NCBI RefSeq assembly: GCF_001618865.1
Contig: NZ_CP015136.1
Coordinates: forward strand, 2,639,001 to 2,703,000
Origin: Luteitalea pratensis
Lineage (GTDB): Bacteria > Acidobacteriota > Vicinamibacteria > Vicinamibacterales > Vicinamibacteraceae
Length of the DNA stretch: 64,000 nucleotides
Direction: 5' to 3'
The stretch's first letter is position 1. Each line of letters begins with the position of its first letter. Below the pieces are notes generated by a model. The model was not told the origin of the DNA. It searched no databases and was given only the letters and a program-made list of their open reading frames with translations. Positions 20,492-56,337 of this stretch are shown piece after piece. Made by a program: the position numbers and the translations under genes.

Positions 20492-21277
20492 CTACGCCGC
20501 CGGCCGGCGAGGCGCGAACGCCCACGCGATCGCGATGCTGAGCACATAGAGCCCCAGCATCGGCAGGGCCAGCGTGACCTGGCTGACGGGACTGCCATCC
20601 GGGGTGACGATGGCCGCGACGATGAAGACGCCGAGCACGGCGTACTTGATGTGACGCAGCATCCAGCGCGCCGTGACGATCCGCATCCGAGCCAGGAACA
20701 TCGTCAGCGTCGGCAACTGGAACGCGAGTGCACACGCGAGCATCATGCGCATGTACAACGACAGCGCCGACGACACGCGCGGCTGGAATTCCACGAAGCC
20801 GTTGGCGAAGCTTGCGAAGAACCGCGAGGCGGCCGGAAAGCTCACGTAGTGGGAGAAGGCCGCGCCGCCGAGGAAACACAGCGTGGCCGAGAGCACGAAG
20901 GGGATCGCGAGACGCTTCTCGTGGACGTACAGCCCTGGCGCGATGAACATCCAGGCCTGGAGCATGAGCGCCGGCGCGGCGATCATCAGGCCGGCGAGGA
21001 AGGAGATCTGCAGGGAAGCGACGAACATCTCCGCGCCATCGGTGTAGATCAGGTGACCGCCTGGCGGGAGGGCTTCACGCAACGGGGTCATCACGAACGT
21101 GAAGATCCGGTCCGAGAAGAACAGGCTGACACAGAAGCCCACGAACGTGGCGGCCAGCGAGATGATCAGGCGCCGACGAAGTTCCTCGAGGTGATCGAGG
21201 AACCCCATGCGGCCACCGAGCGCCTCCCCGCCTTCGTAGAACTGGTCGTCCTGTTCGTACTTCTCGAGTGCCGACAT
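20492..21277 (-). CDS. tatC: Twin-arginine translocase subunit TatC
   Basis: The integral-membrane receptor of the Tat pathway, which exports folded proteins with RR signal peptides. The 261-residue protein has the family signature MGFLDHLEELRRRLIISL near residue 24, with the conserved glutamate that contacts the twin arginines, and six predicted helices including APALMLQAWMFIAPGLYVHEKR. No tatA or tatB is nearby. Two likely Tat substrates, the molybdenum hydroxylase and the serine dehydratase, are encoded in this window. It follows the lytic transglycosylase gene by four bases, so the two are probably co-transcribed. Confidence 0.95.
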   Translation of the reverse strand: MSALEKYEQDDQFYEGGEALGGRMGFLDHLEELRRRLIISLAATFVGFCVSLFFSDRIFTFVMTPLREALPPGGHLIYTDGAEMFVASLQISFLAGLMIAAPALMLQAWMFIAPGLYVHEKRLAIPFVLSATLCFLGGAAFSHYVSFPAASRFFASFANGFVEFQPRVSSALSLYMRMMLACALAFQLPTLTMFLARMRIVTARWMLRHIKYAVLGVFIVAAIVTPDGSPVSQVTLALPMLGLYVLSIAIAWAFAPRRPAA

Positions 21278-44560: not shown

Positions 44561-45406
44561 TCAGTACGCGCGCAGTCCCGCGGCCCTGAATGCGTCAATC
44601 GAGCGTTGCATGGCCTCATCGGACGGCGGTTCGACGTCCGCGAGCCGGTAGGTCAGGTTGAGGTTGCTCCATTTGTAGCGGCCCATCTGGTGGAAGGGCA
44701 GGACGTCCACCCGCTCGACATTGCCGAGCGACGCCGCGAAGTCCGCGATCCCTCGCGGCGTCGCCTCGTCGTCGGTCCAGCCCGGGACGACGACGTGCCG
44801 GATCCAGATCGGGCGTCCGAGGGCCGCGAGCCGCCGCGCGAACGCCAGTGTCGGTTCGAGTGCCATCCCCACGTACCGCAGGTGCCGTGCCGGGTCCCAC
44901 GCCTTGATGTCGAGCAGGATCAAGTCGATCGACGCGAGCTCGTCGTCGCTGAGGAGATCACCGTAGTAGCCGTTGCTGTCGAGCGCAGTGTGAACGCCCA
45001 TCCCCTTTGCGGCGGCAAACAGCCTGGTGACGAACTTGTGCTGCATCAGCGGTTCGCCACCGCTGATCGTCAGCCCGCCTTTCATGATCTTCAGGCCGTT
45101 TCGGTACTTGGCCAGTTCCTCGGTGGCCGTCGCGATGCTGACGGGCATGCCGTTGCGCATCGACCACGTGTCCGGGTTGTGGCAGTAGGCGCAACGCCAC
45201 ATGCAGCCGGCCGTCCAGGCGACGACCCGGACCCCGGGACCGTCCACGGCCGAACCGGTGGTGAACGAGTGGAGGAAGCCCATGTCGCCCGAGGCCAGCG
45301 CCTGCCGCACCGTGGTTTCGGGCACGTCCTTGCTCAGTCCGACGCGCAATTCAAACGGGCTGGAGGCTTCGAGCGGTGTCTGCGGCACGTCCGCTTCGGT
45401 GGACAT
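44561..45406 (-). CDS. pflA: Pyruvate formate-lyase activating enzyme
   Basis: A radical-SAM enzyme that generates the glycyl radical on PflB. The 281-residue protein has the cluster motif CMWRCAYC (Cys68, Cys72, Cys75) preceded by GSAVDGPGVRVVAWTAG and followed by HNPDTW. The later GGLTISGGEPLMQ is the SAM-binding GGE region. About 45 extra N-terminal residues precede the typical start. It begins two bases after the pflB stop and so is in the same operon. Confidence 0.95.
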   Translation of the reverse strand: MSTEADVPQTPLEASSPFELRVGLSKDVPETTVRQALASGDMGFLHSFTTGSAVDGPGVRVVAWTAGCMWRCAYCHNPDTWSMRNGMPVSIATATEELAKYRNGLKIMKGGLTISGGEPLMQHKFVTRLFAAAKGMGVHTALDSNGYYGDLLSDDELASIDLILLDIKAWDPARHLRYVGMALEPTLAFARRLAALGRPIWIRHVVVPGWTDDEATPRGIADFAASLGNVERVDVLPFHQMGRYKWSNLNLTYRLADVEPPSDEAMQRSIDAFRAAGLRAY

Positions 45407-45408
45407 GG

Positions 45409-47667
45409 TCAGGCTCCGTGGAACGTGCGATTGACGACGTCCATCTGCTGCTCGCGCGTGAGCCGGACGAAGTTCACCGCGTAACCGGAGACGCGGATCG
45501 TGAGGTGCGGGTACTTCTCCGGGTGATCCATCGCATCGAGCAGCGTCTCGCGATTCAGGACGTTGACGTTCATGTGATAGCCGGTGACGCCAAAGTACGC
45601 GTCGAGCATCGCCGTCAGGTTGGTCACGCGTTCGTCGTCGGTGCGTCCGAGGCCGGTGGGTACGACTGTCGCGGTGAGCGAGATGCCATCGGCCGCGTCG
45701 CGGAACGGGATCTTGGCCACCGATGCCGCTGCCGCGTGCAGGCCGTGGCTGTCGCGGCCGTGCATGGGGTTCGCGCCGGGCGCGAACGGCTCGCCGTGGC
45801 GCCGGCCGTCCGGCGTGTTCCCGGTGGCCTTGCCGTACACGACGTTGGACGTGATCGTCAGGATCGACTGCGTGTGGACCGCGTCGCGGTAGGTGGGGTA
45901 CTTGCGCAGCTTCTTCATGAACGTGCTCACCACCCAGGACGCGAGGTGGTCCACACGGTTGTCATGGTTGCCGAAGTAGGGGAAGGTGCCCTCGGTCTGG
46001 TAGTCGGTGACGAGGCCGGTGGCGTCGCGCACCACCTTGACCTTCGCGTACTTCATCGCCGAGAGGCTGTCGGCGACGACCGACAGGCCCGCCATCCCGA
46101 ATGCCATCGTGCGAATGGGCGCGTAATCGTGCAGCGCCATCTCGATCCGCTCGTAGGCGTACTTGTCGTGCATGTAGTGGATGACGTTCATGGCGTTGAC
46201 GTAGACGCCAGCCAGCCACTCCATCATTCGCTCGAACTTGCCGGCCACCTCCTCGAGATCGAGGTAATCGCCCTGTACGGCCCCGAACTCGGGGCCGATC
46301 TGCTCGCCCGAGATCTCGTCGCGGCCGCCGTTGATCGCGTAGAGCAGCAGCTTGGCGAGGTTGGCCCGCGCCCCGAAGAACTGCATCTGCTTGCCGACCA
46401 GCATCGGCGACACGCAGCACGCGATGGCGCCGTCGTCGCCGAGGCTCCGGCGCATCAGCTCGTCGCTCTCGAACTGCACCGAACTGGTGTCGATCGCGAC
46501 CTTGGTGGCGAAGCGTCGGAACGCCTCCGGCAGGCGGGGCGAGTAGAGGATGGTGAGGTTGGGCTCTGGGGCGGGCCCGAGGTTGTAGAGCGTCTGCAGG
46601 ACCCGGAAGCTGGTCTTCGTGACGAGTGGACGCCCATCGTCGCCCATGCCGCCGATCGATTCGGTGACCCAGGTCGGGTCACCGGCAAACAGTTCGTCGT
46701 ACTCGGGCGTGCGCAGGAACCGGACGATGCGCAGCTTGATGACGACGTCGTCGATGATTTCCTGCGCTTCGGACTCGGTGAGTGTGCCCTCGGCGAGATC
46801 CCGCTGGAAATAGATGTCGAGGAATGTGGACGTGCGCCCCAGCGACATGGCGGCCCCGTTCTGTTCCTTCACTGCCGCCAAGTAGCCGAAGTACAGCCAC
46901 TGCACGGCTTCCTTCGCGGTCCGCGCCGGCACCGAGATGTCGAAGCCGTAGGCCTTTGCCATCTGCTGCAGTTCCTTCAGCGCACGGATCTGCTCGGAGA
47001 GTTCCTCGCGGTCGCGGATGATGCTCTCGGTGGACATCTCCGCATCGAGCGCGACTTTTTCCTCCTGCTTGTGCTGGATGAGGCGGGCGACGCCGTACAG
47101 CGCGACACGCCTGTAGTCGCCGATGATCCGCCCCCGTCCGTATGCGTCGGGCAGGCCGGTGAGGATGTGCGAACTGCGACACTTGCGGATGTCGGCCGTG
47201 TAGGCATCGAAGACAGCATCGTTGTGCGTCTTGCGGTGCTTCGTGAAGGTCTCGACGACGGCGGGATCGGGCGTGTAGCCATACACCTTCAGCGCGCTGG
47301 CGACCATCCGGAAGCCGCCGTTGGGCATGATCGCGCGCTTGAGCGGCGCCTCCGTCTGCAGGCCGACGATCACTTCGTTGGCCTTGTCGATGTAGCCGGG
47401 CGCGTGCGCGGTAATCGAACTCGGGATCTGCGAGATGTCGAGCACGCCCTTCTTGCGTTCCTCGAGGAACAGCGCGCTGAGCTTCTCCCAGATGCCAAGG
47501 GTGCGCGGTGTCGCCGGCGCCAGGAACGCGCCGTCCCCCTCGTAGGGGTCGAAGTTCAACTGGATGAAGGCGCGGACGTCGATATCCCGCTGCCAGAGTG
47601 CGCCACGGAAGCCGCGCCACGCGGCCGTCGCGTCGTCCACGCGCGTTTCAGGTGCCATCGTAGTCAT
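45409..47667 (-). CDS. pflB: Formate C-acetyltransferase (pyruvate formate-lyase)
   Basis: Converts pyruvate plus CoA to acetyl-CoA plus formate without oxygen. The 752-residue protein has the adjacent catalytic cysteines Cys417-Cys418 in IACCVSPM and the radical glycine Gly728 in RVSGYAVNF, in positions nearly identical to the E. coli enzyme. GAGGTAT precedes the ATG. pflA follows directly. The gene shows that this organism can ferment, although the genome also encodes oxidative enzymes. No FNR-type site was found upstream; the leader contains dispersed repeats. Confidence 0.96.
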
Positions 47668-47704
47668 TGCGATACCTCGAAGAAGCTGCGTTTCGATGAA
47701 GGAA

Positions 47705-47882
47705 TGCCGCTCGGAGAGCGGGCCCCGCGTGCTACCGACGACGTAATGCCGGAATGCCGCGAATGCCGGGAATGTCGAGTCCGGATCGTCACGATTCCGT
47801 GTTGGTCGTTGCCCGTGCATCAGCGTTCAGCGTTCGTCACATGTCCGACCCTCGGCTGTCCCAGCCCGGCGTCCCTCGTCGA
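47705..47882. repeat. Hairpin and GGAATGCC repeats between ackA and pflB
   Basis: Contains CTCGGAGAGCGGGCCCCGCGTGCTACC, AATGCCGGAATGCCGCGAATG, CAGCGTTCAGCGTTCG and CTGTCCCAGCCCGGCG modules. It separates ackA from pflB, so the two may not share one transcript. Confidence 0.7.
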
Positions 47883-47886
47883 ATCC

Positions 47887-49080
47887 TTACGCGTTTGCGG
47901 CCAGACCCAGCAACCGTCCGGTGTGGCGCGCAATCATCAGTTCCTCGTTGGTCGGCACGACCCACGCCGATACCCGAGATTCCGGCCGCGTGATCCGGGT
48001 CTGCCGCGACTCATTGGCGCCGGCGTCGAGATCGACGCCGAGCCAGGCGCATGCGGCGCAGATGCGTGCCCGGATCTCCGCGGAGTTCTCGCCGATGCCG
48101 GCCGTGAAGACGAGCCCGTCCACGCCGCCCAACGCTCCCGCCATGGCGCCGATCTGCTTGGCCGCCTGGTATACGAAGTAGTCGACGGCGAGTTGGGCCG
48201 ATGCCGCGGTATTGCCGAGCAGGTCCCGCATGTCGTTGCTGATTCCGGAGATGCCGAGGAGCCCCGACTTCTTGTAGAGCACCGACTCGACCTCCTTGGG
48301 TGAGAGGCCGAGTGTCTGGAACAGGTAGAGGACGACGCCTGGATCGAGCGCGCCGGGCCGTGTGCCCATGCAGAGGCCGTCGAGCGCGGTGAACGACAGC
48401 GTGCTGTCCACGCTCCTGCCGCCACGAAGCGCGCAAAGACTGGCGCCGCTCCCGAGGTGGGCCACGATCACGCGGCCCGCCGCGATCTCCGGAGCGACGG
48501 TCGGCAGCACCGACGCGACGTACTCGTAGGACAGGCCGTGGAAGCCGTAGCGTTGCACGCCATCGCGACACAGATCACGGGGCAGCGGCACGACGGTGGC
48601 GACCTCCGGCTGTCCGCGATGGAACGACGTGTCGAAGCAGGCCACCTGCGGCACCTCCGGCAGGCGCGCCGTGACGGCGTCGATGGCTGCCAGGTTGTGC
48701 GGCTGGTGCAGCGGCGCCAGCGGGACCAGGCGGCGCAACTCGTCGAGCACCTGCGGCGTCACCGCCACCGGACCCGCGAAGTTCGGCCCGCCGTGGACCA
48801 CGCGGTGCCCGACACCGCGCACCCGGGCGCCGCCGTATTGCTGGCGCAGCCATCCGGCGAGGACGTCGATCGCGCCGTCGCCGTCGCGGACGGAGGCGGC
48901 GAGTGCTTGGTCGGCCACCTTCACGCCCGTGCCGTCCTTGACGGTGAAATGCGGCGAGGTACCGATGCCCTCGATCTGCCCGCGCGCTTCGAGTCCCCAG
49001 GTCTGCTCCTCGGGGCGCCGGTAGACGCAGAACTTGAGGCTCGACGAGCCGGCGTTGAGGACGAGTGCGAAGTCCTCCAT
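47887..49080 (-). CDS. ackA: Acetate kinase
   Basis: Makes ATP and acetate from acetyl phosphate. The 397-residue enzyme begins with the signature LVLNAGSSSLKF and has GFHGLSYEYV and the nucleotide-site segment HLGSGASLCALRGGRSVDSTL. GGAGG lies eight bases before the ATG used; an ATG five codons upstream is also in frame. It works with the phosphotransacetylase gene upstream and the pyruvate formate-lyase gene downstream, all on the same strand. Confidence 0.96.
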   Translation of the reverse strand: MEDFALVLNAGSSSLKFCVYRRPEEQTWGLEARGQIEGIGTSPHFTVKDGTGVKVADQALAASVRDGDGAIDVLAGWLRQQYGGARVRGVGHRVVHGGPNFAGPVAVTPQVLDELRRLVPLAPLHQPHNLAAIDAVTARLPEVPQVACFDTSFHRGQPEVATVVPLPRDLCRDGVQRYGFHGLSYEYVASVLPTVAPEIAAGRVIVAHLGSGASLCALRGGRSVDSTLSFTALDGLCMGTRPGALDPGVVLYLFQTLGLSPKEVESVLYKKSGLLGISGISNDMRDLLGNTAASAQLAVDYFVYQAAKQIGAMAGALGGVDGLVFTAGIGENSAEIRARICAACAWLGVDLDAGANESRQTRITRPESRVSAWVVPTNEELMIARHTGRLLGLAANA

Positions 49081-49105
49081 GGGACGTGCCTCCATGCGAT
49101 CTGTT

Positions 49106-49219: not shown

Positions 49220-50164
49220 CTAGACGCTGGCCGGCATCGCCTGCCGCCGCGCGTGCGCGGCGAGCATGGCCACCCCGCAACTCGCGATGCGGGATCGCAC
49301 GGTGTCGGCGCGGCTCGTCAGGATGATCGGGACCCTGGCCCCGAGTACCAGGCCGGCGCTGTCGGCGTTGGCGAGGAAGCTCAGTTGCTTGGCGAGGATG
49401 TTACCGGCCTCGAGATCGGGCACGAGCAGGATGTCCGGATCACCGGCCACCTCGGACGTAATGCCCTTGGTGCGTGCGGCGTCTTTGCTGATCGCGTTGT
49501 CGAACGCCAACGGCCCGTCGAGCAGGGCGCCGCGGATCTGCCCGCGCTCGGCCATCTTGCACAGGCAGGCCGCGTCGATGGTCGCCACCATCTTCGAGTT
49601 CACGGTTTCAACCGCCGCCAGGATCGCCACCTTCGGCGTCTTCACGCCGAGGGTGACCGCAAGATCGATCGCGTTCTGGCAGATGTCGGCCTTGTCCTCG
49701 AGCGCCGGCGCGATGTTGATGGCGGCATCGGTGACGATGAGCACCTTGTGGTAGGTCGGCACGTCCATGATGAAGACATGACTGATGCGGCGGCCCGTGC
49801 GCAGTCCCGTCTCGCGCGCCACCACGGCGCCGAGCAACTCGTCGGTGTGCAGGCTGCCCTTCATCAGCAGCTCGGCGTCGCCGCATCGCACGAGTTCCAC
49901 GGCCTTCATCGCGGCGGCGTGGCTGTGCACGGCATCGACGATCCTCACGCCGGTCAGGTCGATATTGGCCTTGCCGGCGATCTCCTCGATCTTGGCGGCG
50001 GGCCCGACGAGGATGGGCGTGATCAATCCGAGCGCGCCCGCTTCGATGGCCCCGGCGAGGGCCGACTGTTCGCACGGGTGTGCCACGGCCGTGGCGACCG
50101 GCGGCAGCCCCTTGCACCGCGCCAGCAGTTCTTCGTACTTTCCCGATCCGGTGGTAGCGGTCAT
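49220..50164 (-). CDS. Phosphate acetyl/butyryltransferase family enzyme
   Basis: A 314-residue PTA_PTB-fold enzyme that exchanges CoA for phosphate on acetyl-CoA (or butyryl-CoA). Supporting segments are AIEAGALGLITPILVGP, LMKGSLHTDELLGAVV, HVFIMDVPTYHKVLIVTDAAINIAP and the C-terminal DPDILLVPDLEAGNILAKQLSF. The sequence resembles the transferase half of the bifunctional enoyl-CoA hydratase/phosphate acetyltransferases. Next to ackA, the acetyl substrate is most likely. It begins 17 bases after the MFS transporter stop. Confidence 0.9.
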   Translation of the reverse strand: MTATTGSGKYEELLARCKGLPPVATAVAHPCEQSALAGAIEAGALGLITPILVGPAAKIEEIAGKANIDLTGVRIVDAVHSHAAAMKAVELVRCGDAELLMKGSLHTDELLGAVVARETGLRTGRRISHVFIMDVPTYHKVLIVTDAAINIAPALEDKADICQNAIDLAVTLGVKTPKVAILAAVETVNSKMVATIDAACLCKMAERGQIRGALLDGPLAFDNAISKDAARTKGITSEVAGDPDILLVPDLEAGNILAKQLSFLANADSAGLVLGARVPIILTSRADTVRSRIASCGVAMLAAHARRQAMPASV

Positions 50165-50181: not shown

Positions 50182-51495
50182 CTACCGGGGCGCGCGGCGT
50201 GCCGCGGGCCCCGTCTCCCTGAGGAGGAACGTGAGAACGACGGCCAGCGCGACGCCGTACAGCAGCGGATAGAACGTCGCCTGGTAGTGACTGAGGGTCA
50301 TCGTTCCGCCCCCGCCGCTCACACCCAGGAGGATCCACCCGAACACCGGGCCGAGCAGGGCGCTGAACGTGAAGTTGAGGAAGTTGACGACGCCGGTGGA
50401 GGTGCCGCTCATCTCGGGCGGGTTCGCTTCCTTGATCACCGTGTACGGCAGCATCGCCGCGCCGGACGCGATGCCGGCGACCAGGCCGAGCACGTACGGT
50501 GGCAGCACGTCGATCCGCCCGTAGAGGATCCAGCCGAGGCAGGCGAGCAGCACCAGGCCGCTCCCGGCGATCACCGGCTTGCGCCGTCCGATGCGATCGG
50601 AGATGAAGCCGAGCAGGGGGCACCCGATGATCCAGCCGAGCGGCACGAGTGAGGAACGCAGCACGGCGTCGCCGTATTCGAAACCGCGGGCGTCCTGCAG
50701 GAAGCGCACGCCCCACACCATGTCGAAGATTGTCGTCGGGATGAACAGCAGCCCCGCGATCATCCCGCACAGGATGGACTGGGGATTGCGAAACACGGTC
50801 GCAAACGCATGCAGCACGCCGGGACGACTTGTCTCGGCCTTGGGGCTTTGGCCTTCGGCCTTCATGGGTGGGCGTTCTGCGTTCGGCGTTCGGCGTTCGT
50901 CCCGGGCTGGTAACAGCACGTACAACGCCACGCTCATGACCAGCCCGATGCCACCCATGACGGCCCAGAACGCCTGCCACGGCACGCCGCGCGCGATGAT
51001 CGGACCGACGACGAACTGGCCCGCCGATCCGCCGGCCATCCCGAACATCTGCGTGGCGCCGATCAGCGTGGCGGCGCGAGAGGCGGGGAAGTTCGTCGTC
51101 GCGATGTAGGCGGCGCCGACGAGCGCGAACACGCCGCCCGCGCCCTGCAGCAACCGCCCCGCACTTGCAAGCGTCTGGTTACCAGTGGCGAAGAGCAGCG
51201 CGCCGACGCCCACCGCCGCCGCGCCGATCGGCACGACGCGTCGCGGTCCGAGGGTGTCCATGGCCGCGCCGGCCACCAGGCTGAAGGGTGAGTACCCGTA
51301 ATAGAACAGGCCCACCAGCGAGGCCACGCCCATTGTCGTCAGCCCGAAGGCGTCCGACAGTTGCGGCATCATCACCGCCGGGGCCGATCGCAGCGCGTAC
51401 TGGTAGAAGTAGTACAGCGCCGTGACCAGCCAGGCGGCGACGATCGCCCGCATCGCGGACGACCGCGAGTCGGTGGCAGCGGCGGACTCGTGCAT
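50182..51495 (-). CDS. MFS transporter with a repeat-derived central loop
   Basis: A 437-residue twelve-helix carrier of the major facilitator superfamily, with DTLGPRR after the second helix. The central cytoplasmic loop (about 197-223, DERRTPNAERPPMKAEGQSP) is encoded by tandem GGCGTTC and GGCCTTC heptamers identical in type to the intergenic repeats, so a repeat seems to have invaded the loop without breaking the frame. It sits between the serine dehydratase and phosphotransacetylase genes, with small gaps, so it may move an organic acid such as formate or acetate, or take up the fermented substrate. Confidence 0.85.
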   Translation of the reverse strand: MHESAAATDSRSSAMRAIVAAWLVTALYYFYQYALRSAPAVMMPQLSDAFGLTTMGVASLVGLFYYGYSPFSLVAGAAMDTLGPRRVVPIGAAAVGVGALLFATGNQTLASAGRLLQGAGGVFALVGAAYIATTNFPASRAATLIGATQMFGMAGGSAGQFVVGPIIARGVPWQAFWAVMGGIGLVMSVALYVLLPARDERRTPNAERPPMKAEGQSPKAETSRPGVLHAFATVFRNPQSILCGMIAGLLFIPTTIFDMVWGVRFLQDARGFEYGDAVLRSSLVPLGWIIGCPLLGFISDRIGRRKPVIAGSGLVLLACLGWILYGRIDVLPPYVLGLVAGIASGAAMLPYTVIKEANPPEMSGTSTGVVNFLNFTFSALLGPVFGWILLGVSGGGGTMTLSHYQATFYPLLYGVALAVVLTFLLRETGPAARRAPR

Positions 51496-51503
51496 CGCCG
51501 GTC

Positions 51504-53123
51504 CTAGCAGAGCGCCAGCGAAACGGCCAGCCCGCCCTCGGAGGTCTCCTTGTACTTGCCGTTCATCTCGCGGGCGGTGAGCGCCATCGCGGTCACCGTG
51601 GTGTCGAAGTCGACGCGGCGGTTGGCGGGGATCTCGTTGCTCGCGATCATGAACCCGGTCCAGGCCTTCACTGCGCCGAACGCGCAGCGCTCGATGCAGG
51701 GCACCTGCACGAAGCCGGCGACCGGATCGCACGTCATCCCGAGGTGGTGCTGCAGCGACGACTCGGCCGCGTTGGCCACGACCTGCGGCGGGAAGTCATG
51801 GGCCTGCGCGAGGAACGCCGCGCCCATGGCCGAGGCGACACCGATCTCCGCCTGGCAGCCGCCTTCCGCGCCCGACAGCGTCGCGTTGTGCTTGCAGAGA
51901 TACCCGATGGCCGCAGCGGCGAGGAATCCGTCACGGATCTTGTCGTCGGGCAGGTTTCGGCCGCCCTCGCCGATCGCATACACGATCGCGGGCATCACCC
52001 CGGCGGAGCCGCCAGTCGGCGCCGTGACCACCAGGTGGCCACGCGCATTCTCTTCCGATCCAGCGAGGGCATACGCCGCGACGACGCCCACGCCACGCTG
52101 TCCGACGTACTTTTCGTCCTGGGCCCGCTTGTAGACGTCGCCGGCCTTGGTCTTCAATTTGATCGGACCGGGCAGCGTCGACTCCGGCGCCGCGAGCCCC
52201 GCCTTGACGATGTTGACCATCGCGGTGTGAATCTTGTGGACGAACGCGGCGACCTCCGCCTCGGTCTTGCCGGAGACGGCGACCTCGTTGGCCATCACCA
52301 CCTGCGCGATGGAGAGGTTGTTCTTCTCGGCGTGCGTCTGGAGTTCCTTCATCGTCGAGTACGGGTACTTCGGCTGGCCCTTCTTCGGCGGCTCGTAGCC
52401 CTTCCACTCGATGAACCCGCCGCCGACCGAGTAGTACTCCTGCTCGAGGAGCACCTGGTCGCCCGCCATGAGCTTGCAGGTCATGGTGTTGGGGTGCGGG
52501 AAGTTGCCTTTCGGCGCGTCGTAGATGATGTCCTTGAGCGACGCCTTGAACGTCGTGCCGCCCAACTTCACGTCGAAGGTCTGGTCGGGGTTGCTTGCCA
52601 GGCCGTCCAGGAACGCCGGCTCCACGGTGGCCGGTTCCTTGCCGACAATGCCGGCCAGCGAGGCGCGCTCGGTGCCATGGCCCTTGCCCGTCGCACTGAG
52701 GCTGCCAAACAGGTGCACCTTGAGAGCCGTCGCCTTGGCGAGCTGGTCGGCCGGCAGCTTGGTGCACCGTTGGTAGAAGTCGTACGTGATCCGCATCGGG
52801 CCGATCGTGTGCGAGCTCGACGGCCCGGGACCGACCTTGTAGAACTCATCGATCGTCGTCATCACCGGGCCCTTGGTGTCCTTCTTGACCGCGAGGTCCT
52901 GCGAGACCTGGCTGTCAGCGACCTTGGGAGCCGGGGGAGGCGTGGGGTTGTTGGCGGTCTGCTCTGGTGTCGGGGCGGCACATCCGGTGAGCACGGCGGC
53001 CGCACCAGTGACGGCGCTCCGCATCAGGAACGCCCGGCGATCCACCGCGGCGAGGCCCTCGGTCACTACGCGGGCGTCGGCTTGCCACGAGGTCAAGGCC
53101 TCGGTACGTTCGTGGTCCTTCAT
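51504..53123 (-). CDS. L-serine ammonia-lyase with Tat/lipoprotein signal
   Basis: Iron-sulfur enzyme turning L-serine into pyruvate and ammonia, single-chain type. The catalytic portion has GPGPSSSHTIGPMR, VTAPTGGSAGVMPAIV, cluster cysteines in GGCQAEIG and MTCDPVAGFVQVPCIERC, and a C-terminal cysteine (SLALC) known to cap the active site in this family. The oddity is the N-terminus: about 85 extra residues with a twin arginine (DRRAFLMRS, 29-30), a hydrophobic stretch and the lipobox LTGC (Cys48), followed by a proline-rich linker. This predicts a Tat-exported lipoprotein. MFS, phosphotransacetylase and other fermentation genes follow. A sigma-54-like element precedes it. Confidence 0.9.
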   Translation of the reverse strand: MKDHERTEALTSWQADARVVTEGLAAVDRRAFLMRSAVTGAAAVLTGCAAPTPEQTANNPTPPPAPKVADSQVSQDLAVKKDTKGPVMTTIDEFYKVGPGPSSSHTIGPMRITYDFYQRCTKLPADQLAKATALKVHLFGSLSATGKGHGTERASLAGIVGKEPATVEPAFLDGLASNPDQTFDVKLGGTTFKASLKDIIYDAPKGNFPHPNTMTCKLMAGDQVLLEQEYYSVGGGFIEWKGYEPPKKGQPKYPYSTMKELQTHAEKNNLSIAQVVMANEVAVSGKTEAEVAAFVHKIHTAMVNIVKAGLAAPESTLPGPIKLKTKAGDVYKRAQDEKYVGQRGVGVVAAYALAGSEENARGHLVVTAPTGGSAGVMPAIVYAIGEGGRNLPDDKIRDGFLAAAAIGYLCKHNATLSGAEGGCQAEIGVASAMGAAFLAQAHDFPPQVVANAAESSLQHHLGMTCDPVAGFVQVPCIERCAFGAVKAWTGFMIASNEIPANRRVDFDTTVTAMALTAREMNGKYKETSEGGLAVSLALC

Positions 53124-53183
53124 GGTGTCTCCTTGGGTCGTCGTGCGGTTCCGCCGCCGACGCGTGCGAATACCTACGAGTCA

Positions 53184-53208: not shown

Positions 53209-53224
53209 CACCTAGCCCTAGGTG
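53209..53224. promoter_or_regulatory. Perfect palindrome CACCTAG-CC-CTAGGTG
   Basis: Seven-base perfect arms with a two-base centre, ten bases beyond the -24 element of the serine dehydratase promoter. It is not one of the dispersed repeats and looks like an operator. Confidence 0.45.
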
Positions 53225-54112: not shown

Positions 54113-54122
54113 GACAGTGGCC

Positions 54123-55385
54123 ATGTCTCGCCGCGGCGTTCTCGTCGTTGCCCTCAGTGCCCTATGCTGCGCCGGCCCGGCCTCGATTCCGGCCGGCGCG
54201 GCGCTGCTTGCCCGCGTCCAGCAGCCGGCCCCGCCCGCGGCTGCCGGCGCGTCGAGCCCGCAGGTGCTCGACGAACTGCTCGCGCCCGTCGCCCTGTATC
54301 CCGACCAGTTACTGGCGCAGATGCTCCTTTGCGCACAGCAGCCGGACAAGGTGCAGGAGTTCAGCGGCTGGCTGGTGCGCAACGCCGAGCTCACCGGAAC
54401 CAAGCTCCAGGATGCGGCCAAGGCCGCCGGCTATGACGCCAGCTTCGTGGTGATGGCGTTGTTCCCGCCGGTCGTCAACTTCATGGCCGACAACATCGCC
54501 TGGACGCGCCAGTTGGGCGCCACGTTCTCGACGGACCAGAAGGGCGTCTTCGAGAGCATCCAGCGGTTGCGGCAGAAGAGCCAGCAGGCCGGCAACCTGA
54601 AGACCACCCCGCAGCAGAAGGTCGAGACCAGGACGACCAAGACGGGCGAGCAGGCGATCGTCATCGAGCCGGCCAACCCGCAGGTGGTGTACGTGCCCCA
54701 GTACGACCCACAGGTCGTCTACACGCAGCCCGCCCCGACCACGACCACGATCGTCATCAAGGAGGAAGACGATGACGACGAGGCGGTTGCAGCAGTGGCG
54801 GGCGCCGCAGTCGGGTTCGCGGCCGGGATTGCCATCGGCGCCGCGATCGACAACAACTACTACTACGGGCCGTACGGCTGGCACGGCGGCGGGTACATGT
54901 ACAACGACTCCTGGGACGACTTCTACGACGACCGCGAGGATGCCCGCGAGGACTTCTACGACAACCGCGAGGACGCCCGGGAGGACATCTCCGACAACCG
55001 CGAGGATGCCAGGGAGAACGCGAACGAGCGACGCGAGAACACGTCGAGCCAGCGCACCGAACGTGCCGAGACCGCACAGCAGCAGCGCACCGAACGTTCG
55101 GAGAACCGTCAGACCCCCGAGGCGCAGGCGCAGCGGCAGCAGCGCGCCGACACTGCGCGCACCAACGCACAGGCCGCCGGTGCCGGCACCGGCCAGTACA
55201 GCGCCAACGGCGCGTCGCGCGGCACCACGGAGCGATCGGTGGATCGCAGCGGCAGGAGTTCGGATGCGTTTTCCGGCTATTCGAGTGGCAAGTCCGAACG
55301 GGCGGCGTCATCACGTGGGAGCCGGAGTCGCTCGTCGAGCCGTTCCAGTGGTGGCGGGCGCGGCGGCGGCGGCCGTCGGCGCTGA
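54123..55385 (+). CDS. Exported DUF3300 protein with acidic repeats
   Basis: A 420-residue exported protein. The DUF3300 domain spans about residues 40-200 (LDELLAPVALYPDQLLAQMLLCAQQP, AAGYDASFVVMALFPPVVNFMA, VIEPANPQVVYVPQYDPQVVY). An acidic patch, a hydrophobic segment (about 220-240) and a low-complexity tail follow. The tail starts with three copies of a ten-residue unit (DDREDARED, DNREDARED, DNREDAREN) and ends in a serine/glycine/arginine-rich stretch. A GTG two codons earlier is an alternative start. DUF3300 and DUF2950 genes are often paired, as here; their function is unknown, with envelope stability a common guess. Confidence 0.85.
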   Translation: MSRRGVLVVALSALCCAGPASIPAGAALLARVQQPAPPAAAGASSPQVLDELLAPVALYPDQLLAQMLLCAQQPDKVQEFSGWLVRNAELTGTKLQDAAKAAGYDASFVVMALFPPVVNFMADNIAWTRQLGATFSTDQKGVFESIQRLRQKSQQAGNLKTTPQQKVETRTTKTGEQAIVIEPANPQVVYVPQYDPQVVYTQPAPTTTTIVIKEEDDDDEAVAAVAGAAVGFAAGIAIGAAIDNNYYYGPYGWHGGGYMYNDSWDDFYDDREDAREDFYDNREDAREDISDNREDARENANERRENTSSQRTERAETAQQQRTERSENRQTPEAQAQRQQRADTARTNAQAAGAGTGQYSANGASRGTTERSVDRSGRSSDAFSGYSSGKSERAASSRGSRSRSSSRSSGGGRGGGGRRR

Positions 55386-55398
55386 CCGCTAGGTGAGC

Positions 55399-56337
55399 AT
55401 GTCGATCATGACTTCACGATTCCTGCGCAGTGTCGCGGTCGCGGCCGGCCTGATGCTGCCGGCCATCGCCGCGGCGCAGCCGCCGCGCGTGTTCCAGACT
55501 CCTGAGGAGGCGGTCACCGCCCTCAGGACGGCAGCACGCGCGAAGGACATCCAGCCGCTGCTGGCGCTGCTCGGCGCCCGTGGGCGCGACCTCGCCTCCT
55601 CATCGGACGCGGCCACGGCGCGGCAACACCGCGCCGTCTTTCTCGTCGCGATGCGCGAAGGCTGGAAGCTCGCCGACGTGTCGGCCGACCGCAAGGAACT
55701 CGTGGTCGGGCGCGAGGAATGGCCATTCCCGGTGCCGCTCGTAAAGACGGCCAAGGGCTGGGTGTTCGACGCCGCGGCGGGGAAGGAAGAAGTGATCACC
55801 CGGCGCATCGGGCGCAACGAGCTCGCCGCGATTCAGATCGTGAAGACGTACGTGGCCGCCCAGCGTGCCTACGCGAAACGCGGTCACGACGCGATACCGG
55901 CCGGCGCCTACGCGCGCCGGTTGGCGAGCACTGCCGGCACCGAGGACGGCCTTTACTGGCCGGTCAAGTCGGGCGAGCCGCACAGCCCGCTCGGGCCACT
56001 CGTCGCCGAGGCGGCGGCCGAAGGCCGCACGCTCGGCGCCGGCGGACAGCCCACCCCGTTTCACGGGTATTACTTCCGGATTCTCGAGAAGCAGGGCGCC
56101 GGCGCGCAGGGCGGTGCGCGGAGCTACGTGGTCGGCGGCGCGATGACGGGTGGCTTTGCACTCGTGGCCTGGCCCGCCGCCTACGGCAACACCGGCGTGA
56201 TGACGTTCATCGTCGGGCCTGACGGGACGACGTACGAACACGATCTCGGCGCGAACACGGCGAGTGCCGTCAAGGCCATCACGGCCTTCAACCCGGACAA
56301 CACCTGGCACAACGTGGTAGCCGCCGAGCAGCCGTAA
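55399..56337 (+). CDS. Exported DUF2950 protein
   Basis: A 312-residue exported protein. The signal peptide ends near AIAAAQP. The DUF2950 domain covers most of the rest: FQTPEEAVTALRTAARAKD, ITRRIGRNELAAIQIVKTYVAAQRAY, GLYWPVKSGEPHSPLGPLV, PTPFHGYYFRIL and the glycine-rich GGFALVAWPAAYGNTGVMTFIV. It follows the DUF3300 gene by 13 bases, in one operon. An in-frame GTG two codons upstream is an alternative start. The biochemical role is unknown. Confidence 0.87.
   Translation: MSIMTSRFLRSVAVAAGLMLPAIAAAQPPRVFQTPEEAVTALRTAARAKDIQPLLALLGARGRDLASSSDAATARQHRAVFLVAMREGWKLADVSADRKELVVGREEWPFPVPLVKTAKGWVFDAAAGKEEVITRRIGRNELAAIQIVKTYVAAQRAYAKRGHDAIPAGAYARRLASTAGTEDGLYWPVKSGEPHSPLGPLVAEAAAEGRTLGAGGQPTPFHGYYFRILEKQGAGAQGGARSYVVGGAMTGGFALVAWPAAYGNTGVMTFIVGPDGTTYEHDLGANTASAVKAITAFNPDNTWHNVVAAEQP

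Follow-up and report, generated by a model that had tools for sequence, protein, structure and literature searches.

The window, a stretch of 64,000 nucleotides from the Luteitalea pratensis genome (contig NZ_CP015136.1, positions 2,639,001 to 2,703,000), carries on its minus strand a gene (51504-53123) for a complete [4Fe-4S] L-serine dehydratase of 539 residues bearing a predicted Tat signal. We consider it likely that this enzyme is exported by Tat and deaminates serine outside the inner membrane, that a carrier imports the resulting pyruvate, and that pyruvate formate-lyase (PFL), phosphate acetyltransferase (Pta) and acetate kinase (Ack) use it to make ATP. The sequences show a full catalytic set, a Tat signal that is conserved and under selection, a recurring operon, and two alternative carrier families; from these we infer the substrate, the direction of transport, the use at low oxygen, and the physiology.

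The preliminary description of the gene had regarded the protein behind its signal as catalytically complete, and this was borne out. Pfam indicated the domains SDH_beta (residues 93-241) and SDH_alpha (residues 267-533), and the equivalog model for L-serine ammonia-lyase, TIGR00720, was passed with 395.4 bits against a cut-off of 345.1. Alignment with the Legionella enzyme assigned the cluster ligands to Cys423, Cys465, and Cys476 (within 51696-51857) and to the C-terminal Cys539 (51507-51509), and the proposed catalytic base to His149 in the motif GKGHGT (52677-52679). Their counterparts in the Legionella serine dehydratase are Cys458, described as the fourth cluster ligand in an excerpt of PMC12647591, for Cys539, and His61, the proposed catalytic base in the same excerpt, for His149. 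His149 was invariant across the 26 rows of alignment A2. Cys423, Cys465, and Cys476 were kept in all 79 sequences of the clade described below and in all 18 ordinary sequences compared with them, and the position of Cys539 was Cys in 75 of the 79 clade rows. An AlphaFold2 model of the protein had a mean pLDDT of 78.2, with values mostly below 60 in the signal and linker; pLDDT was also low at residues 466-472 and 525-539, and the model does not resolve the cluster loop or the C-terminal tail. Foldseek matched the model to the Legionella structure 4rqo (E 3.2e-26, TM on target 0.81, 36% identity). The genome itself (7.48 Mb, one contig) encodes a second serine dehydratase, a frame of 473 codons without a signal.

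The ATG of the full-length protein (at 53123) is preceded by the Shine-Dalgarno sequence AAGGAG (53129-53134) at a distance of 5 nucleotides. Residues 1-47 (52983-53123) form a predicted Tat signal peptide, in which the motif DRRAFLMRS, with the twin arginines 29-30 at 53034-53039, is followed by a hydrophobic stretch and then by the lipobox LTGC (L45-T-G-C48), whose Cys48 (52980-52982) is the predicted site of lipid attachment. Residues 49-86 (52866-52979) make up a linker that diverges among near relatives. The RRAFLMRS motif, hydrophobic stretch, and lipobox noted earlier were confirmed in this way, as was a proline-rich spacer, which extends to about residue 86. When residues 2-86 were shuffled with their composition preserved, RR, a hydrophobic stretch, and a lipobox occurred together in 3 of 100,000 shuffles, and a chance motif was rejected on this ground. 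The curated Tat model TIGR01409 gave 16.5 bits for residues 27-49, 0.2 short of its cut-off of 16.7, so automatic annotation would narrowly miss the signal; a Pfam search of the N-terminus of the window protein matched no Tat model and no lipoprotein (lipid-attachment) model. TatC is encoded outside the operon at 20492-21277 (PF00902 match at 20561-21196), this being one of two copies in the genome, and was found in all 16 other genomes searched. Export of the dehydratase is well supported by these sequence features, and we infer that it actually takes place.

Alignment A1, with six rows, was used to scan public genomes; it gave 88 relatives, and the 80 best of these were retained. Many of these 80 are metagenome bins whose labels are possibly wrong, and five apparently are records from the scans of nearby genomes or of the phylum (loci L076, L102, L106, L139, and L143). 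The isolates among them belong to Microvirga, Sphingomonas, Caulobacter, Phenylobacterium, Brevundimonas, Vineibacter, Edaphobacter, Flavihumibacter, and Algoriphagus. In 74 of these best 80 of 88 loci, which span several phyla, RRxF precedes a hydrophobic stretch (73 measured, L078 judged by eye). The signal was missing from four (L080, L106, L119, and L141), the first two of which are sisters in the tree, and a contig edge cuts two (L099 and L146). A similar test applied to frames of ordinary enzymes flagged none of 39 (34 distinct genes, all from Acidobacteriota). The residue preceding RR was Asp, not Ser or Thr, in 59 of 73 signals, which counts against the main reading. In 68 of the 74 signal-bearing relatives, a possible start ahead of RR comes with an AAGGAGG match of 4 nucleotides or more, which is weaker evidence than an independent test because the starts were picked by their AAGGAGG score.

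A lipobox was present in 16 of the 74 signal-bearing relatives (15 by pattern, L133 by eye), and the signals of Microvirga end in ARA-QQ. The AxA pattern used for cleavage sites other than the lipobox is too permissive to discriminate, since all N-termini tested passed it; hence clear cleavage sites are shown for only part of the clade. The label "Tat lipoprotein" is therefore supported in its first half and, for the window protein with its LTGC, also as a prediction in its second, but the second half does not extend to most relatives: what the clade conserves is targeting to Tat, with lipid anchoring as a variation on it.

Among the 60 taxonomically nearest genomes (own included), two others contained a close relative at 80% identity, each carrying RRTFMMR and a lipobox, and a search of four genomes of the same genus and two of the same family found no clade member. 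In a scan of the phylum (396 genomes, up to three candidates scored per genome), at least three more genomes had a match above 600 bits among the candidates scored: one with RRTFLMR and no lipobox Cys, one with RRQFGRT and AMA-QQ, and one without a signal. The alignment of N-termini with relatives that had been proposed for the gene thus upheld the signal in the clade at large, but had nothing to align in the same genus and family, indicating that conservation follows an apparently horizontally spread clade, not the genus. As for plasmids and viruses as vehicles of this spread, they were rejected: a plasmid collection searched at E 1e-80 contained a single match, an ordinary enzyme at 40% identity, and viral contigs gave none.

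A separate observation concerns a subclade with RRxFG/T, mostly Bacteroidota, in which the otherwise variable n-region before RR contains C-x2-C-x4-C-x2-C in 8 of 9 members (L134, L135, L136, L138, L139, L140, L142, and L145), with three Cys in L133. This motif resembles a metal or cluster site within the signal peptide and perhaps serves as a check on folding or loading.

Selection on the signal was estimated as dN/dS by pooled pairwise Nei-Gojobori estimates, which are rough because synonymous differences were high (0.48-0.69 per site). In 20 Microvirga sequences, the ratio was 0.055 for the 23-residue core of RR and hydrophobic stretch, 0.056 for the catalytic part, 0.085 for the linker, and 0.32 for the n-region; in Microvirga, purifying selection acts on the Tat core as strongly as on the catalytic part. 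The window sequence and 11 near relatives gave 0.174 for the core, 0.140 for the catalytic part (to residue 500), 0.55 for the linker, and 0.51 for the n-region. The contrast was weaker in 12 sequences from Sphingomonas, Caulobacter, and Phenylobacterium, with 0.251, 0.160, 0.60, and 0.255, respectively.

These results bear on where the protein begins. A true start downstream of Cys48, a concern raised in the preliminary description, was rejected on the strong ribosome-binding site of the full-length ATG, the conservation and selection of the signal, and the poor conservation of the internal start at Met87. Similarly, there is hardly any chance that the signal is an annotation artefact, that is, upstream sequence fused to the gene through a wrong start; the G+C-rich stretch does hold other long frames, but the Shine-Dalgarno site at the long start and a signal conserved at the protein level and selected already refute this. 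It is also quite improbable that the gene yields two forms, the exported full-length protein and a cytoplasmic one starting from Met87, just before the catalytic part. In the window and in four relatives inspected alongside, AAGGG precedes the codon of Met87 by 7 nucleotides, and that codon is ATG in 64 of the 74 signal-bearing relatives (63 by pattern, L121 by eye). However, the other 10 have another codon there, which in 8 is none of ATG, GTG, and TTG, and AAGGG is dictated by a conserved Lys-Gly-Pro. Moreover, PF03313 has another match in 8 of 12 isolate genomes, although that in Vineibacter, with equal frame length and score, is probably a second copy; in 4 of the 12 the clade enzyme is the only PF03313 match.

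The same data were weighed against the view that the N-terminus serves to anchor the protein in the membrane or is a relic; the dehydratase would then stay on the cytoplasmic side and supply PFL directly, and the carrier would move serine in or products out. No export signal was seen on PFL, Pta, and Ack, so a cytoplasmic dehydratase would be their simplest supplier; the four loci without a signal presumably work inside, and cleavage sites are not uniform. Nevertheless, a mere anchor needs no twin arginines, yet the RR core of Microvirga is selected like the catalytic part, and a lipobox or an end of the ARA-QQ type serves only outside. We therefore find the anchor or relic very doubtful and retain export by Tat as the preferred reading.

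In a tree of catalytic parts with 79 clade rows and 21 ordinary rows, the latter all from Acidobacteriota genomes, the clade formed one side of a branch with an SH-aLRT of 100; the tree search was a quick one, and it came with a warning about long branches joining at this point. The signal as a trait required four changes on this tree. Seventeen positions were nearly fixed in the clade to residues differing from those of ordinary enzymes, some of them in or beside conserved motifs and one (residue 285) covered by just two ordinary rows. Cys480 (51684-51686), four residues past the ligand Cys476, replaces the Asn of ordinary enzymes and was present in 79 of 79 clade rows against 0 of 18 ordinary ones. 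Cys410 was found in 76 of the 79 clade rows. The clade-specific residues possibly reflect added protection of the cluster or an altered substrate, and with the 17 nearly fixed differences the substrate may not be serine. If the Tat-exported enzyme acted on a different amino acid with a beta-hydroxy or beta-thiol group, be it threonine, cysteine, D-serine, or a modified form of serine, its product, pyruvate or 2-oxobutyrate, would be taken up and cleaved through PFL as in the main reading. Changes such as N-to-C480 beside Cys476 and G-to-T213 would agree with this. The Pta of the operon is Ptb-like and its kinase is of the acetate/propionate family, which would also suit a C4 keto acid. On the other hand, the score on TIGR00720 and the retained catalytic His and cluster ligands favor serine, which leaves this alternative unlikely, although the most credible of those considered here.

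The dehydratase is the first gene of an operon on the minus strand. It is followed by an MFS carrier (50182-51495; Pfam MFS_1), proposed as a pyruvate importer or exchanger; a phosphate acetyltransferase of the Pta/Ptb type (49220-50164; PF01515; NF008852, 511 bits, cut-off 413); an acetate/propionate kinase, AckA (47887-49095; PF00871; TIGR00016, 355.6 bits, cut-off 293.4); pyruvate formate-lyase, PflB (45409-47820; TIGR01255, 1104.5 bits, cut-off 994.2), whose true start is probably inside the frame; and the PFL-activating radical SAM enzyme PflA (44561-45406; TIGR02493, 269.3 bits, cut-off 231.75). An adjoining carrier gene had been reported before, and indeed the MFS gene begins 8 nucleotides past the dehydratase stop codon, at 51495; the operon beyond it, from Pta to PflA, was absent from that earlier reading. 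The best subfamily match of the MFS carrier was the D-galactonate transporter (92.5 versus 395 bits), and no solved structure was matched by sequence at E 1e-6.

Two features lie on the other side of the dehydratase gene. A perfect 7-bp inverted repeat, CACCTAG-CC-CTAGGTG, is located at 53209-53224, 86-101 nucleotides upstream of the start. The pattern CCTAG, 0-4 nucleotides, CTAGG was absent from the 400 nucleotides upstream of the match in all 80 relatives, which rules out the repeat as a shared operator. Genes for DUF3300 and DUF2950 proteins are placed divergently upstream (54117-56337), and each was nearby in 8 of the 80 relatives.

Flanks of at most 9 kb, often shorter, were searched for recurring neighbors at the 80 loci (best 80 of 88): PflB was present at 43, PflA at 42, Pta at 31, Ack at 30, an AspT-type carrier at 27, and an MFS carrier at 26. 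Any of these six was found within 1.5 kb in 51 of the 80 clade loci as opposed to 0 of 53 ordinary loci, all from Acidobacteriota and some of them pieces of one gene. The exact six-gene order of the window recurred in 9 of the 80 (L069, L071, L073, L074, L075, L077, L079, L084, and L140), all metagenome bins, and in the isolate Edaphobacter aggregans (L112) the other five genes lie directly upstream of the dehydratase. The MFS match begins 2-283 nucleotides past the dehydratase match in 25 of the 80. Microvirga and loci L081, L083, L086, and L118 have no MFS carrier and have an AspT/YidE-type carrier behind pflA; the pflA and AspT-type matches are at most 60 nucleotides apart in 23 of the 24 loci holding both, and in some loci (such as L083, L108, L111, and L118) this unit lies near the dehydratase but not directly downstream of it. 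Among the 43 loci with pflB, 18 had the MFS carrier, 23 the AspT-type carrier, 1 both, and 1 neither, so that a carrier was present in 42; in the carrier-less locus (L109), pflB is at the end of a 9-kb contig. None of the MFS carrier, AspT-type carrier, and PflB was found at 27 of the 80 loci, some but not all of which are short contigs.

Other neighbors over the 80 loci were a protein cluster termed c8 (16), DcaP-type porin-like proteins (14), asparaginase (7), aspartase (7), amidohydrolase (5), and glutaminase (4). Cluster c8 (L102:10671-12440 and 15 other loci) consists of frames of about 470-620 codons with a signal-like N-terminus followed by a coiled-coil-like stretch. It recurs beside the dehydratase where the MFS carrier and PFL are missing, and Pfam gave no match to its representative.

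Based on these features, the following mechanism is proposed. The dehydratase would fold and take up its [4Fe-4S] cluster in the cytoplasm. Tat moves folded, cofactor-loaded cargo, so the cluster would be inserted before export. Tat would then carry the enzyme across the inner membrane, where in L. pratensis it would be lipid-anchored at Cys48 and convert L-serine to pyruvate and ammonium on the outer side. The carrier encoded directly behind the dehydratase may import the pyruvate, and formate or acetate might leave the cell in return. Once activated by PflA, PflB would split pyruvate into acetyl-CoA and formate; the acetyl-CoA would then be converted to acetate by Pta and AckA, with the formation of one ATP. 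The operon would thus act as the serine branch of an anaerobic serine/threonine fermentation with its first step relocated outside. Use at low oxygen is suggested by the oxygen lability of both PFL and the cluster. L. pratensis is listed as aerobic, with a high-affinity cbb3 oxidase, in an excerpt of PMC5900883, which fits low-oxygen use only loosely. A point against the main reading is that pyruvate formed outside could diffuse away. The analysis nonetheless suggests that bacteria with the exported dehydratase deaminate serine outside and import only the carbon.

Import of pyruvate is proposed by analogy with an asparaginase-AspT-aspartase set, which the genome itself encodes about 12 kb from the dehydratase and just past the window (2703927-2710078; L155:7886-14079). 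The aspartase is without a signal (NF008909, 715.9 over 510; TIGR00839, 665.3 under 681.2); the aspartate:alanine antiporter AspT passed TIGR03802 (607.9 over 546.95); and the type II asparaginase passed TIGR00520 (412.5 over 314.3) and by eye has a hydrophobic N-terminus and no RRxF motif. In this set, the first deamination would take place outside, and an exchanger would import the acid. At some relatives, the dehydratase is accompanied by asparaginase, glutaminase, and even aspartase with apparent signals, plus DcaP-type porin-like proteins. The asparaginase and glutaminase N-termini printed uncut were hydrophobic by eye, and aspartase-like frames with a signal-like N-terminus by eye were found at L116:1763-3238, L128:2560-4044, and L144:2832-4307, those of L075 and L143 being without one. 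As a side observation, the aspartase frame at L086:4175-6163 is preceded by an apparent cyclic-nucleotide-binding domain (by eye). Taken together, these findings may describe a widespread, apparently horizontally spread module of Gram-negative bacteria, in which amino acids are deaminated outside the inner membrane and their carbon skeletons alone are imported. A Tat-exported Fe-S serine dehydratase would supply a pyruvate carrier and then PFL, Pta, and Ack, and two unrelated carriers, possibly pyruvate/formate or pyruvate/acetate exchangers, would fill the same slot. Our judgement on this broader generalization is evenly balanced.

A search of the open literature, with most subscription journals outside its scope, found no report of an exported serine dehydratase; in excerpts of PMC3156733 and PMC3878961, the search words occur in unrelated places. 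A Tat-targeted clade would be new, and the enzyme family and the kind of pathway are already known. If the reading is true, this conserved exported clade, found over several phyla, would add a class to the known Tat cargo and a site to those known for amino acid deamination, and the picture of ammonium release from free serine by soil bacteria would change. It would also be a natural case of a labile [4Fe-4S] lyase surviving outside the cytoplasm, with the invariant extra Cys480 as a candidate adaptation. The reading makes a testable claim on the carrier, namely pyruvate import, and if the carriers are pyruvate/formate or pyruvate/acetate exchangers, the exported dehydratase would help energy conservation.

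Known type 2 serine dehydratases are cytoplasmic and oxygen-labile. The window enzyme resembles the single-chain members (SdaA, SdaB, TdcG, and the Legionella enzyme, PDB 4RQO) in its two domains, proposed catalytic His, three cluster Cys, and C-terminal Cys. The clade differs in about 86 added N-terminal residues, which comprise the Tat signal and the linker, in Cys480 and Cys410, and in its separate branch against 21 ordinary Acidobacteriota sequences. The L-cysteine desulfidase CyuA (9fsl, 9fyi, and 9he0) has a related catalytic domain and cluster, as judged from the structure match and an excerpt of PMC12647591, according to which CyuA carries a catalytic Cys/Glu pair in place of the serine dehydratase His. 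Membership in CyuA was rejected, since the structural match had 9-11% identity and His149 aligns with Legionella His61, not with that pair; the window protein also has the SDH_beta domain. The set of periplasmic asparaginase II, AspT, and aspartase shares the arrangement of deamination outside, import of the acid by an exchanger, and a second step inside, whereas its asparaginase is cofactor-free and has a hydrophobic N-terminus without RRxF. The tdc operon of E. coli, the closest operon known, encodes the carrier TdcC, the kinase TdcD, the PFL-type TdcE, and the Fe-S serine dehydratase TdcG, and thus has an equal set of functions (dehydratase, carrier, kinase, and PFL). Compared with it, the window dehydratase has an export signal, the carrier is of the MFS or AspT/YidE type, and the operon has its own Pta and PflA.
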